Source: Ensifer sesbaniae
GTDB lineage: Bacteria > Pseudomonadota > Alphaproteobacteria > Rhizobiales > Rhizobiaceae
Assembly: GCF_013283665.1 (NCBI RefSeq)
Contig: NZ_JABEKU010000002.1
Coordinates: 2,260,060 to 2,324,059, forward strand
DNA: 64,000 nt
Reading direction: 5' to 3'
The position numbers and the translations under genes are program-made. Positions within the stretch are counted from its first letter, which is position 1, and every line of letters starts with the position of its first letter. Shown here piece by piece: positions 39,923 to 45,953 of the stretch. Under the pieces are notes generated by a model. That model was not told the origin of the DNA and did not search any database. It saw only the letters and a program-made list of their open reading frames with translations.

Positions 39923-39948
39923 ATCGTTCAGTAGATAAAAACTATGGA
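39923..39948. promoter_or_regulatory. phn regulatory motif, copy 1 (upstream of phnS)
   Basis: ATCGTTC at 39923-39929 and ATGGA at 39944-39948 are separated by 14 bases, the same layout as the copies at 44164 and 45918. The whole 39791-40153 gap has no gene. It holds this site in an A/T-rich stretch (39900-39950, with an imperfect TTATC...GATAA pair) and the phnY terminator. Confidence 0.55.
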
Positions 39949-40093
39949 TGCCATGCCGCGAAACCAGGCATATCGACAGGCAAACGGTCACATCTTCGGC
40001 AACCTTCAATAGAACTTCGGAAAGACTGCAAATTCCCGAGGCAGATCTGCGATTGCACCCGGAAAAGGCTGTCAAAGCATCAGGCGGCACAAC

Positions 40094-40121
40094 AAAAAAG
40101 GGAGCCGCCACGGCAGCTCCC
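40094..40121 (-). terminator. Rho-independent terminator of the phnWAY transcript
   Basis: Read on the minus strand, GGGAGC...GCTCCC (40100-40121, with extra GCC/GGC pairing inside one mismatch) is followed by six Ts. It lies 33 bases after the phnY stop and separates catabolic genes from the import operon. Confidence 0.85.
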
Positions 40122-40153
40122 AGAAGGGTGATTGCGCGGGGGAAACGCTCAGA

Positions 40154-41608
40154 TCACCATGGCAGGGAGAAGGTCTTGACGTTGGTAAAGCTCTTCATCG
40201 CCTCGATGACACCTTCCTTGTAGCCGTTGCCCGAATCCTTGATGCCGCCGAAGGGGCTCATCTCGATGCGGTAGCCCGGCACTTCCCAGATGTTGACCGT
40301 GCCGACCTTCAGCCCGGCGATGTATTTCTGCATGCGCCGGAAGTCGTTGGTGCAGACGCCGGAGGAAAGGCCGAAGGCCGTCGAATTCGACAGGGCGATC
40401 AGCGCGTCGTCGTCATCGGGCGCGCGCACGATCGGGATGATCGGCGCGAAGGTTTCCTCCATCACCAGTTCGCTCGAGTGCGCGACCCGGTCGACCACGA
40501 TCGGCGGCAGCAGGGCACCCTGTCGGCCGGGGTTGTAGAGGATCTCCGCTCCCTCTTCGGCCGCCTGGTGCACGCGCCGCTCGAAGATTTCGGCCGCGCG
40601 CGCATGCACGACCGTGCCGAGTTCCGTCGCGCGGTCCATCGGATCGCCGAACTTGAGCTTCTTCGCCCGCTCCAGCACCAGCGGCACGAAGCGGTCGGCA
40701 ACGCTCTCCTGGCAGAGAATGCGCTTCACCGCCGTGCAACGCTGGCCGGAATTCTTCGTCGCGCCGGCAACGGCGAGATCCGCTGCTTTGGCGAGATCGG
40801 CGTCCGACAGATCGTTGAGGATGATCATCGGGTCGTTGCCGCCGAGTTCCAGCACCTGCCGCTTGTAATGCGCGTGCGCCGCAATCAGCTTTCCGACCGG
40901 CACGCTGCCCGTGAAGGTGATCAGGTCGAAGTTCGGGTTGGTGATCATCTCCATGCCGATATCGGCCGGCCAACCGGTCACGACCGAGAGCATCTCCGGC
41001 GGCAGGCCGGCTTCGTAGAGAATGTCGGCGAAGACGAGCGCCGTCATCGGCGTCAGTTCGGTCGGTTTCAACACCACGCAATTGTTCGTCGCAACGGCCG
41101 GCGCCACCTTGTGTGCCACCATGTTGAGCGGGTGGTTGAAGGGCGTGATCGCCGAAATGGCGGTCAGCGGTTCGCGGGTGGTGAAGATCTTGCGCGCCTT
41201 GCCGTGCGGGGTGAGGTCGCAGGAGAAGATTTCGCCATCGTCATGGATGCACATCTGACCGGACAGCGTCAGCACGTCGAAGGCGCGGCCGACCTCGTAA
41301 AGCGAATCCTGCTTCGAAATGCCGAGCTCCAGAGTGATCAGGTCGGAGATCTCCTCCTTGCGCGCGACGAGCAGCTCCGCCGCCTTCAGCAGGATGCGCT
41401 GACGCTCGTAGCGCGTCAGCTTCGGCTGGTAGGCGGCCGCGATCTCGAAGGCCTTGCGGGCGTGCTCGGCGTTGCCCGCCGGCACGGTGCCGATCACGGC
41501 ATCGTTCCAAGGGTAACGCACCTCGATGCGCCCCTCGGTCTCGACCGCCTTGCCGGCGATCCGCATCGGCTCGTGGCGAATTGCGAATGTCGTTTCCACC
41601 TTGGTCAT
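40154..41608 (-). CDS. phnY: Phosphonoacetaldehyde dehydrogenase
   Basis: A 484-residue aldehyde dehydrogenase that oxidises phosphonoacetaldehyde to phosphonoacetate with NAD+, the second step of the PhnWAY route. Catalytic Glu254 (LELGGN) and Cys291 (NSGQRCTAVKR) are present, the same numbers I recall for the S. meliloti enzyme. The start at 41608 has AGGGAGGGAG upstream. It starts 10 bp after phnA stops. A Rho-independent terminator follows. Confidence 0.92.
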   Translation of the reverse strand: MTKVETTFAIRHEPMRIAGKAVETEGRIEVRYPWNDAVIGTVPAGNAEHARKAFEIAAAYQPKLTRYERQRILLKAAELLVARKEEISDLITLELGISKQDSLYEVGRAFDVLTLSGQMCIHDDGEIFSCDLTPHGKARKIFTTREPLTAISAITPFNHPLNMVAHKVAPAVATNNCVVLKPTELTPMTALVFADILYEAGLPPEMLSVVTGWPADIGMEMITNPNFDLITFTGSVPVGKLIAAHAHYKRQVLELGGNDPMIILNDLSDADLAKAADLAVAGATKNSGQRCTAVKRILCQESVADRFVPLVLERAKKLKFGDPMDRATELGTVVHARAAEIFERRVHQAAEEGAEILYNPGRQGALLPPIVVDRVAHSSELVMEETFAPIIPIVRAPDDDDALIALSNSTAFGLSSGVCTNDFRRMQKYIAGLKVGTVNIWEVPGYRIEMSPFGGIKDSGNGYKEGVIEAMKSFTNVKTFSLPW

Positions 41609-41618
41609 CGCTCCCTCC

Positions 41619-44101: not shown

Positions 44102-44163
44102 GGTCCGTCCTCGCAGTTGGCGTGTTCGAGAAAGACAATGCGGTGGAAACATGTATCTGTAAA

Positions 44164-44189
44164 ATCGTTCTTTTGTATCAATATATAGA
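44164..44189. promoter_or_regulatory. phn regulatory motif, copy 2 (upstream of phnW)
   Basis: ATCGTTC (44164-44170) - 14 bases - ATAGA (44185-44189). Aligned with the 45918 copy, about 22 of 29 positions match. It lies 63 bp upstream of phnW, almost the same distance as the 45918 copy has from the Na/Pi transporter start (62 bp), in the same orientation. Confidence 0.65.
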
Positions 44190-44203
44190 CTGTACTTATA
44201 CAT

Positions 44204-45856
44204 CTAGGCTGCGGGAACCAGACGGCTTTCGAGCAGATCTCCGCTGTCGCGCAGACGCGGATAGGCCATGGCCGTCACCAGTGAATTGACCTCCTTCAGC
44301 GCCCGCACGATCTCCAGATGCATGTCGCTCGACAGGATGCTCGCCGCCACCCCTTGGCGAAGCCGCTCCAGATGGCTCTTGCTGCTCTCCTCGACGAGGC
44401 GGCGCACGTGTTCCTTTTGCCGGACCATCTCGCGGGCAATTACCGGGTCGGGGGAGACGAGAAGATTGGCCGCGAGCCTGACATTGGAAGATACGGCCGC
44501 GTGCAGCAGGGTGAGCTCGCGCCAGCCCGCCTGCGAGAAGGTGCCCGCGCCCTCCAGCCGCTCCTCTGCCATTTGCAGAAGGTTCTTCGCAACGACGTCG
44601 CCGGCATATTCGAGATGGATCGCCGCCTCCGTGAGCTCGATGCCGCGCCGGGATTGGTCTTCGGTGAGCACACCGCGGTTGACGGCGGCGATGTAGAGCT
44701 TGATCTCGCTATGCGCCCGGTGGATGTCGGCGTCGATGCCGCGCAGCGTCTTGACCGCCTCCGGCGTCGGCGACTGAATGACAGTCATGACCGGCTCCAG
44801 CATTCGCGCAATGAGATTGCCCATGTGCAGCACTTCGCGCGCCGCGGCCGCGAGCGCCTGCGCCGGCTTGTCGATCAGCGTGCGGTCGAGCGCGCTGACA
44901 TGGACAGAGTGGTCGCCAGCACCGGCGGCGTCCGGCATGAGCAACTGAACGAGCCGCGCCATCGCGCCGCAGGAAACCATTCCGACGAGAACCAGGGTGG
45001 CGTTGAAGAATACATGCAGGTTGACGAGTTGGCCGGCCGCCGTATCACCCGGAAGCCAGGTGAAAGGGGCGTGCAACGAGAATAGGCCGAAGATCATTGC
45101 GCCGAACAGGGCGCGAAAGAGGAGGTTCCCAAGCGGCAGGCGCCGGCCCTCGACCGGCAGACCGCGCGTCAGCCATAGCGCGATCAACCCGCCGCCAATG
45201 TTGACGCCGAGAACCAAGGGTATGCCGACCTCGATGGGCACGATGCCTTTCGCGGCAAAGGTCAGGATCAGCAGGATCGCCGCCACGCTGGAATGCAGCG
45301 CCCAGGTAAAAAGCGCCGCAAGGATCATCACGGTCAGCGCGTCCCTGCCGATGAAAGCGACGATGGACGGCAGGAGCGGGCTTTGCGCGAGCGGCTGCGT
45401 CGCATGGCCGATCATCTGCAGCGACAGGAGCAGAAGGCCGATGCCGAGCACGGCGCGTCCGCCTTCAACAGCCTTGCGCGCCGAGGCCTTCAGATGCATG
45501 AGGCCGCCCACCGCAATCAAGAGCGGCGCCAGCCAATTGAGATCGAAGGACAGGATCTTGACGACGAGCGCCGAACCGAGATCGGCGCCGAGCAGCACCG
45601 CCAGGCCGGTATCAAGCGCCAGCGCGCCGCTGACGGCGAAGCCGGCGGCAAGCATGGCGACGGCCGTCGAGCTCTGCAAGGCAATGGCAACGGCGCAGCC
45701 GCAGGCGGCGGCGCGCGGCCGCCCACCAGCGCCGCCGACGGTGCGCGCGACGATGTCGCCCGCCGCCGCTTCAACGCCTTTCTTCACGAGACTGACGGCA
45801 TAGAGCAGCAGGACGGTTGCGGCGGCGAGCTCGAGGGCGACAGCCGGCAGGTTCAT
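44204..45856 (-). CDS. Na/Pi-cotransporter-family protein with PhoU domain (YjbB/NptA-like)
   Basis: A 550-residue membrane protein. Two Na/Pi modules each carry a re-entrant Q/HSS motif (ALQSSTAVAML and ALHSSVAAILL), with about nine spans up to residue ~320. The C-terminal ~220 residues are helical and PhoU-like (ALDRTLIDKPAQALAAAAREVLHMG). The homologue YjbB of E. coli exports phosphate. Here the gene lies 102 bp upstream of phnW on the same strand and shares its promoter motif. AEP use as carbon or nitrogen source releases surplus phosphate, so export is the likely role; uptake is the alternative. Confidence 0.82.
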   Translation of the reverse strand: MNLPAVALELAAATVLLLYAVSLVKKGVEAAAGDIVARTVGGAGGRPRAAACGCAVAIALQSSTAVAMLAAGFAVSGALALDTGLAVLLGADLGSALVVKILSFDLNWLAPLLIAVGGLMHLKASARKAVEGGRAVLGIGLLLLSLQMIGHATQPLAQSPLLPSIVAFIGRDALTVMILAALFTWALHSSVAAILLILTFAAKGIVPIEVGIPLVLGVNIGGGLIALWLTRGLPVEGRRLPLGNLLFRALFGAMIFGLFSLHAPFTWLPGDTAAGQLVNLHVFFNATLVLVGMVSCGAMARLVQLLMPDAAGAGDHSVHVSALDRTLIDKPAQALAAAAREVLHMGNLIARMLEPVMTVIQSPTPEAVKTLRGIDADIHRAHSEIKLYIAAVNRGVLTEDQSRRGIELTEAAIHLEYAGDVVAKNLLQMAEERLEGAGTFSQAGWRELTLLHAAVSSNVRLAANLLVSPDPVIAREMVRQKEHVRRLVEESSKSHLERLRQGVAASILSSDMHLEIVRALKEVNSLVTAMAYPRLRDSGDLLESRLVPAA

Positions 45857-45917
45857 GGGCGTGTTCCGGAAAGAGCAGCAATCCGAAAACTATCCTTTGC
45901 GGCTTTACATAAATCAA

Positions 45918-45953
45918 ATCGTTCGTTCTAATGAATCCATAGATCAAATCTAT
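45918..45953. promoter_or_regulatory. phn regulatory motif, copy 3, with LysR-type palindrome
   Basis: ATCGTTC (45918-45924) - 14 bases - ATAGA (45939-45943). The second half is also the left arm of a perfect palindrome ATAGAT-CAA-ATCTAT (45939-45953), which contains the T-N11-A core favoured by LysR proteins. It lies between the divergent LysR gene (start 45975) and the Na/Pi gene (start 45856), so it could serve both. Confidence 0.65.

Follow-up and report, generated by a model that had tools for sequence, protein, structure and literature searches.

Introduction

In Pseudomonas putida BIRD-1, full induction of phnWX by 2-aminoethylphosphonate (AEP) requires AepR, a LysR-type transcriptional regulator (LTTR) whose gene lies beside AEP catabolic genes (PMC9311074, PMC8316502). 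LTTR-controlled promoters normally carry a recognition binding site (RBS) with a T-N11-A dyad near -65 (PMC8407307). A phnWAY cluster of Sinorhizobium meliloti (Borisova et al. 2011, as cited in PMC10574752) contains the same kinds of genes as the locus described here, including an ATP-binding cassette (ABC) transporter and a Na+ symporter. This locus lies in a 64,000-nucleotide stretch of the Ensifer sesbaniae genome, hereafter the window (contig NZ_JABEKU010000002.1, positions 2,260,060 to 2,324,059). Its AepR-type LysR gene adjoins a sodium/phosphate (Na/Pi) cotransporter gene and phnWAY, and is divergent (plus strand) from the minus-strand phnU2, phnT2, phnS2, phnY, phnA, phnW, and Na/Pi genes. 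The encoded regulator scores 362.3 bits against TIGR03339 ('aminoethylphosphonate catabolism associated'), exceeding the curated cut-off of 341.1.

An earlier note on this DNA had reported a split motif, ATCGTTC-N14-ATRGA, in three promoters of the locus, and had predicted that the adjacent LysR controls the importer, the catabolic genes, and the Na/Pi transporter as a single regulon. Our comparison of relatives supports this regulon well, with four corrections: the conserved unit is a 44-bp module of RBS, activation binding site (ABS), and -35 hexamer; the phnS copy is shifted by 13 bp; the third copy would also be the LysR promoter site; and export of phosphate is a more likely function of the Na/Pi protein than import. 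The 44-bp module, present three times in the window and conserved in relatives, is very probably the operator of the adjacent AepR-type LysR, as judged from sequence comparison.

Results

Architecture of the 44-bp module

The split motif occurs exactly at 39923-39948, 44164-44189, and 45918-45943, in each case on the plus strand, at distances of 133, 63, and 62 bp from the start codons of phnS, phnW, and the Na/Pi gene, respectively. The phnW and Na/Pi copies are alike and homologous, agreeing at 19 of 26 motif positions; the claimed agreement at 22 of 29 positions was not reproduced. The whole 6,897,201-base genome holds four exact copies, three of them at this locus. With up to two mismatches, the window contains 11 matches versus 6.79 expected, a number reached by 10 of 100 shuffles, and with up to one mismatch the genome contains 67. 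Because of this genomic background and the lack of clear enrichment in the window, the split motif as written is weak evidence on its own.

We compared 80 named LysR loci of relatives (L numbers; genomes carry G numbers), with genes placed by tblastn. The loci of S. meliloti, S. medicae, and Ensifer sp. USDA 6670 (L042-L044) are within this set, and phnW, complete or partial, is present in 79 of the 80. A search before the phnW, phnS, and Na/Pi genes of related rhizobia, as the note had suggested, found the position of the motif kept in the Rhizobiaceae loci L021-L041: allowing two mismatches, it lies 60-66 bp before phnW (21/21), 61-65 bp before the adjacent Na/Pi gene (16/16), and 130-134 bp before phnS (14/17).

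Alignments of the relatives revealed a conserved unit longer than the split motif. The module contains a T-N11-A box (RBS) and, after a gap of 6 bp, another such box (ABS), whose center lies 21 bp, or two helical turns, from that of the first; a -35-like hexamer follows, separated by 17 bp from a weak -10. In gene orientation, the phnW consensus reads ATAA.t..aatC.ATagaTT.ATACAAAAGAACGATTTTACA with CATTGT further on, and the Na/Pi consensus reads ATA..tT...tC.ATg, then AACgAACGATTTGATTTATGTAAAG, then GATAgT. Before phnW, the core spanning ABS and -35, ATACAAAANAACGATTTTACA, is nearly invariant in Ensifer, Shinella, Mesorhizobium, and Aminobacter relatives; the hexamers TTTACA and CATTGT are present in 63/80 and 22/80 sites, respectively. 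The two halves of the split motif are the right arms of the RBS and ABS boxes, and the fixed 14-base gap follows from the set spacing of these boxes. The split motif was rejected as the conserved unit, as it explains less than the 44-bp module and is out of register at phnS. The exact copies of the motif stand; the idea of one homologous site in a single register across all three promoters does not.

A dyad scan anchored on the AACGAT core, in which about 1.5 of 6 pairs are expected by chance, took in 72 of the 80 phnW upstream regions, 64 of 81 LysR upstream regions, and 22 of 44 phnS sites, the last in the register of the earlier note. The maximum fell at the same center, -22, at both phnW (3.90 of 6 pairs) and LysR-proximal sites (3.36 of 6). 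At the third copy this is the LysR-type palindrome already noticed there (ATAGATTTGATCTAT in gene orientation), and phnW has an equivalent, less perfect dyad. The second box has a conserved T-N11-A and abuts the -35 hexamer. Since its own symmetry is slight, the label ABS rests on spacing, conservation, position, and the T-N11-A rule.

Cross-class profiles, trained without the sites of the window, were applied with the requirement that a match score better than 20 mononucleotide shuffles. A profile of LysR-proximal sites gave a gene-strand match in 80/80 phnW and 44/44 phnS upstream regions, three of the phnW matches being the LysR-proximal site itself in short gaps. Conversely, a phnW-trained profile matched 53/53 Na/Pi and 44/44 phnS upstream regions (43 of the latter on the gene strand). 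Na/Pi genes were counted at a tblastn identity of at least 37%; three of the 53 (L035, L084, L085) lie beside another LysR gene.

Register of the phnS site

The phnS copy had been placed in the same register as the other two. We assessed this with a 44-bp profile trained only on phnW and LysR-proximal sites, those of the window included; it also served for the locus scan and gap counts below. Its top match lay on the gene strand in all 44 phnS upstream regions (window included), and a register 13 bp nearer the gene won in every one of them. For the window, the profile score was 27.4 in the shifted register versus -15.7 in the former one, and only 6/44 phnS upstream regions have GAACGAT where the window has it. 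The corrected layout in the window is ATAGTTTTTATCTAC-TGAACG-ATAAGAATAATAAAT-TTTACT; in locus L088, the 15-mer at the place of the RBS is ATAAGCTGAGGCTAC. The phnS -35 hexamer (TTTACT in 39/44, with CAGAAT as the -10 in 12/44) directly follows the ABS, as at phnW, and the corrected register therefore gives one geometry for all three promoters. By this comparison, the third exact match of the split motif is mostly a register coincidence within the right promoter.

The site between the LysR and Na/Pi genes

The module in this intergenic region has a predicted promoter on either side. The ABS covers the predicted LysR -10 hexamer, and the RBS starts at the predicted LysR transcription start. Among Rhizobiaceae loci (window included), the Na/Pi-facing -35 TTGATT and -10 GATA are both present in 17/17 loci with a Na/Pi gene there and in 1/5 and 0/5 loci, respectively, without one, while the LysR-facing -35 TTTACA is present in all 22, with or without the gene. 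As these patterns indicate, the third copy is equally the putative promoter site of the LysR gene itself. An interpretation as a promoter of the Na/Pi gene only was rejected, since the LysR-proximal module is kept in 13 of 30 loci without a Na/Pi gene between phnW and LysR (L025, L026, L035, L036, L038, L045, L047, L048, L049, L058, L060, L068, L075). The LysR-proximal modules in these gaps score 8.2 to 44.7, the weakest being those of L047 (8.2), L035 (12.9), L068 (16.6), and L048 (16.9). The remaining 17 phnW-LysR gaps contain one module, and the next best score is -15 or lower.

To find relics of the Na/Pi gene in these gaps, we used its protein products from the window and from the Mesorhizobium loci L046, L050, L062, and L079 as tblastn queries. 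Matches were found in the Mesorhizobium gaps L060 (best E 4e-13), L075 (5e-8), L049 (2e-4), and L058 (0.004); L045 was marginal (0.02), L047 (0.11) and L048 (0.28) were not significant, and this search gave no match in L068 or in the Rhizobiaceae gaps. The clear relics, at L060 9474-10000 and L075 9581-10000, lie between the two sites in loci where the gene is missing. Mesorhizobium gaps have probably lost the Na/Pi gene while keeping both sites, and the relics imply that the site outlived the gene there.

Distribution in the genome, genus, and family

The genome was searched with a model using sequence only, which drew on 78 of 91 non-redundant sites, all 78 from other species and none from the window. 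The concern, raised with the original prediction, that the motif might occur at background frequency genome-wide does not apply to the module: the only full-length matches up to E 10 are the three promoters of the locus (E values in Table 1), the other five matches being partial. A form of the split motif refined on relatives, ATCGTTC-N9-AA-N3-AT-N-GA, is found exactly only three times in the genome, each time at the locus. Among 16 genomes of the genus, 11 carry 21 exact copies of this string between them, all but one within 6.1 kb of the LysR gene. In 151 family genomes it gave 46 matches in 33 genomes, mostly background, with five at the locus (three in G000 and two in G120). A string of this length is too short for comparisons at family distance, and the profile model was used there instead.

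Within the genus, 15 of the 16 genomes have the LysR together with phnW and LysR-proximal sites, and the one without the LysR (G004) has no site. An extra, weaker match is present in 13 of these 15, at 4.2-8.2 kb from the phnW site or, in G011, on another contig before phnS. In the family sample (151 genomes; LysR at E 1e-90 or better, sites at E 0.01 or better with strict filters), the LysR was found in 30 genomes and sites in 28, all 28 among those with the LysR; no site was found at these thresholds in the 121 genomes without it (Fisher p 1.9e-28, uncorrected for relatedness). The distance to the LysR gene is at most 10 kb for 59 of the 62 family matches and 13-15 kb for two; the remaining one, a partial match, is on another contig. 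Only three family genomes (G016, G023, G164) have phnW without an AepR-type LysR, and none of these has a site.

Regulatory model and alternative explanations

The module is best read as the AepR operator of a predicted small AEP regulon with negative autoregulation. With the transcription start placed 7 bp beyond the -10 hexamer, the RBS would be centered at about -64 and the ABS at about -43, the usual geometry of a LysR tetramer; the T-N11-A dyad near -65 expected of an LTTR is thereby found, with the value of -64 following from the predicted promoter. A LysR tetramer would sit on the RBS and, upon binding AEP or one of its degradation products, for example phosphonoacetaldehyde, would make use of the ABS and recruit RNA polymerase, activating phnW-A-Y, phnS2-T2-U2, and the Na/Pi gene. 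The module between LysR and Na/Pi covers the predicted LysR -10 and start, and may there repress the regulator's own gene while serving Na/Pi.

Several observations weigh against this interpretation. Rival dyad centers also score high: 3.68 at +10 for phnW and 3.11 at +4 for LysR-proximal sites, both falling in the nearly invariant part, and 4.18 at +19 for phnS. The corrected phnS RBS center (-9) scores only 2.45 pairs, so that the RBS dyad peak is seen in the phnW and LysR-proximal classes and not at phnS. Covariation of the arms was tried as proof of the dyad by shuffling right arms between loci; it was absent at phnW, where 181/1000 shuffles reached the observed value and the result was not significant, and weak at LysR-proximal sites (34/1000). 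The ABS shows little dyad symmetry of its own, and the -10 hexamers are poor matches to the consensus. Of the three modules, that of phnS is the weakest (E 0.026), with a model trained on phnS sites of other species. Two family genomes with the LysR, G049 (61% identical LysR) and G080 (51%), have no site at E 0.01, a search whose filters lose weak matches. Finally, as phnW occurs without the LysR in so few genomes, the presence of the LysR can hardly be told apart from that of phnW.

We weighed three other explanations of the shared sites. If the conserved blocks were core promoter elements of one sigma factor class, and not an activator site, they would be expected to abut -35-like hexamers with 17-bp spacers, as they do; ordinary promoters of this kind would also be numerous, whereas the 44-bp model has no further full-length match in 6.9 Mb, and the RBS dyad lies upstream of the -35. 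We consider this explanation very unlikely. Binding by another regulator such as PhoB, NtrC, or OxyR, with no role for the adjacent LysR, is only slightly less improbable. PhoBR, NtrBC, and CbrAB do act on Pseudomonas AEP promoters (PMC9311074), and OxyR controls phnW of P. aeruginosa (PMC5720770), but global regulators have many sites and the module has three full-length genome matches; in the family sample it is confined to genomes with the AepR-type LysR, and it stands in the promoter region of the LysR gene itself. That the three copies are chance matches of a short motif has next to no probability left: the motif does occur at window background with up to two mismatches, and its phnS copy is largely coincidental, yet relatives keep the position, strand, and sequence of the sites, and the three promoters are the top-ranking matches of the model in the genome.

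The Na/Pi protein as a candidate phosphate exporter

Nearly the whole Na/Pi protein can be aligned with E. coli YjbB; 183 of 536 positions are identical (34%), and the alignment takes in the PhoU-domain part. It thus combines the Na/Pi domain, C-terminal PhoU domain, and full-length similarity that mark the YjbB type. It scores 177.1 against TIGR01013 (below the cut-off of 306.15) and 83.9 against NF037997 (above the cut-off of 50), and a sequence search of solved structures returned no relative. The same search gave, as relatives of the LysR, LTTRs of other pathways.

YjbB is a reported phosphate exporter (PMC11389368), and cells that grow on AEP as a nitrogen source export phosphate (PMC8316502). 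On this basis the Na/Pi protein is somewhat more probably than otherwise a YjbB-type phosphate exporter, a relief valve that would drain the phosphate freed when AEP is used for carbon or nitrogen; export is favored because the locus already has an ABC importer. The competing possibility, that the protein imports AEP or phosphate within a regulon otherwise as described, is a serious one, although we hold it to be the less probable. From the gene neighborhood, a review infers that the S. meliloti Na+ symporter takes up AEP (PMC10574752), which counts against export, and NptA relatives with PhoU domains import phosphate (PMC13170248). Against import stand the AEP-type ABC importer already present, the excess phosphate that AEP breakdown yields and cells export (PMC8316502), and the near full-length alignment with YjbB.

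Extending export to the whole regulon, it is conceivable, if still doubtful, that AepR governs a full phosphonate-to-phosphate conduit, in which a YjbB-type efflux valve dedicated to phosphate would be tied through a single operator to the import and cleavage of AEP. If true, the Na/Pi gene would be the missing exporter behind the phosphate released by AEP-degrading bacteria into soil and sea, and the 44-bp operator would be a genome-readable marker of the phosphate-releasing AEP trait.

Gene content of the locus and further occurrences of the module

The features of the locus are listed in Table 1. By similarity, the host genome is near Ensifer (LysR loci L021-L023, 90-94%).

Table 1. Predicted operator sites, promoters, and genes of the AEP locus (positions in the window unless a locus of a relative is named).
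Feature	Position	Strand	Evidence or comment
phnU2, fused ABC permease	35500..37515	-	TIGR03262
phnT2, ABC ATPase	37518..38693	-	TIGR03265
phnS2, AEP-type solute-binding protein	38768..39790	-	TIGR03261, 506.7 bits, cut-off 392.75
Predicted phnS promoter	39881..39909	-	-35 TTTACT (39904-39909), 17 bp, -10 CAGAAT (39881-39886)
Putative ABS, phnS site, corrected register, ATAAGAATAATAAAT	39910..39924	-	Alignment of relatives and profile; whole module E 0.026 in genome search
Putative RBS, phnS site, corrected register, ATAGTTTTTATCTAC	39931..39945	-	Profile of phnW and LysR-proximal sites
phnY, phosphonoacetaldehyde dehydrogenase	40154..41608	-	TIGR03250
phnA, phosphonoacetate hydrolase	41619..42881	-	TIGR02335
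phnW, AEP-pyruvate transaminase	42899..44101	-	TIGR02326, TIGR03301
Predicted phnW promoter	44135..44163	-	-35 TTTACA (44158-44163), 17 bp, -10 CATTGT (44135-44140)
Putative ABS, phnW site, ATACAAAAGAACGAT	44164..44178	-	Near-invariant in relatives; whole module E 4.0e-8 in genome search
Putative RBS, phnW site, ATAAGTACAGTCTAT	44185..44199	-	Dyad peak -22 in 72 phnW sites
Na/Pi cotransporter with PhoU domain, YjbB-like	44204..45856	-	Pfam PF02690 and PF01895
Predicted Na/Pi promoter	45889..45917	-	-35 TTGATT (45912-45917), 17 bp, -10 GATAGT (45889-45894)
Predicted LysR promoter	45904..45932	+	-35 TTTACA (45904-45909), 17 bp, -10 TCTAAT (45927-45932); overlapped by ABS
Putative ABS, LysR-Na/Pi site, ATTAGAACGAACGAT	45918..45932	-	Holds the ATCGTTC half; conserved; whole module E 2.6e-6 in genome search
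Putative RBS, LysR-Na/Pi site, ATAGATTTGATCTAT	45939..45953	-	T-N11-A; dyad peak -22 in 64 LysR-proximal sites
LysR-type regulator, AepR type	45975..46850	+	TIGR03339 phn_lysR; LysR helix-turn-helix and substrate domains
phnA modules in relatives	L057 6861-6904; L071 6811-6854; L080 6853-6896; L081 13702-13745; L086 13761-13804		Scores 13.9 to 36.1

A phosphotransacetylase (pta) gene (46931-47950) adjoins the LysR gene. It may be part of a sulfonate pathway; the gene at 49059-50834 presumably encodes a protein resembling sulfoacetaldehyde acetyltransferase (Xsc).

A scan of 1.64 Mb of loci gave 253 matches scoring at least 12, of which 61 were unassigned; 32 of these are the other strand of an assigned site, and 29 are others. 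The module precedes TIGR03227 PhnS binding-protein genes, of another AEP family, in L056 and L091. A strong module (score 40.0) is located at L098 2765-2808, before a family-5 solute-binding protein gene in a Pseudodonghicola genome, possibly that of another type of AEP importer. The phnA gene has its own module in five loci (Table 1), in two of which (L081 and L086) phnY and phnA are on the far side of the LysR gene from phnW.

Rearrangements and paralogs were also observed. In Ensifer sp. Root278 (L022 7646-8128), only the first 161 residues of PhnW were found and phnA and phnY were not seen within the locus, with both sites kept; this locus is probably rearranged. In G012, a module at L134 3304-3347 (contig C15, not that of the main cluster) stands before a second phnS2-like gene, recognized by its translation. 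The frame of this gene is broken by one stop, and a transposase-like frame follows, which we take to be of the IS110 type. A similar RBS and ABS layout (L035 16669-16712; L085 12618-12661) accompanies the Na/Pi genes beside another LysR (32-34% identical), so that a sister regulator may use the same arrangement. Four genomes have a second LysR, 52-54% identical to the AepR-type LysR, at about 12-14 kb from the first in G005, G008, and G013 and about 114 kb in G007.

Comparison with known systems

The module is best read as real and deeply conserved, representing a known kind of operator (LTTR RBS/ABS) for a known type of regulator (AepR), with the operator itself undescribed in the literature searched. 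In line with the earlier note, which knew of no published description of the site, no operator of an AepR-type regulator turned up in that literature, including the available text of PMC9311074, PMC8316502, PMC11203657, PMC10574752, and PMC5343134; subscription literature lay mostly outside this search, and the absence is to that extent unproven. AepR, so far known by its gene and a Pseudomonas mutant phenotype, gains a defined predicted operator and a three-operon regulon. As the module accompanies AEP function even with an importer of another family, it can be used to flag AEP transporters and linked genes in genomes. The Na/Pi gene is a candidate for phosphate release during AEP mineralization, part of the phosphorus cycle in the environment for which the literature searched names no exporter.

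The available text of the review on the S. meliloti cluster notes a LysR gene, gives no binding site, and reads the symporter as an AEP importer (PMC10574752). The Na/Pi protein resembles E. coli YjbB over its full length, but yjbB lies between metH and pepE, while the Na/Pi gene of the window is among phosphonate genes. The predicted operator shares with LTTR operators in general the T-N11-A dyad, predicted to lie near -65, and the predicted overlap with the regulator's own promoter, and it has a putative second site by the -35 (PMC8407307); it differs in the nearly invariant ABS/-35 core at phnW. Among the regulators of BIRD-1, the single alphaproteobacterial AepR is closest to the AepP-linked form. 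Each AepR of BIRD-1 is thought to be limited to its adjacent operon, with no operator described in the available text (PMC9311074), whereas the regulator of the window is predicted to act on three operons by way of a defined site.

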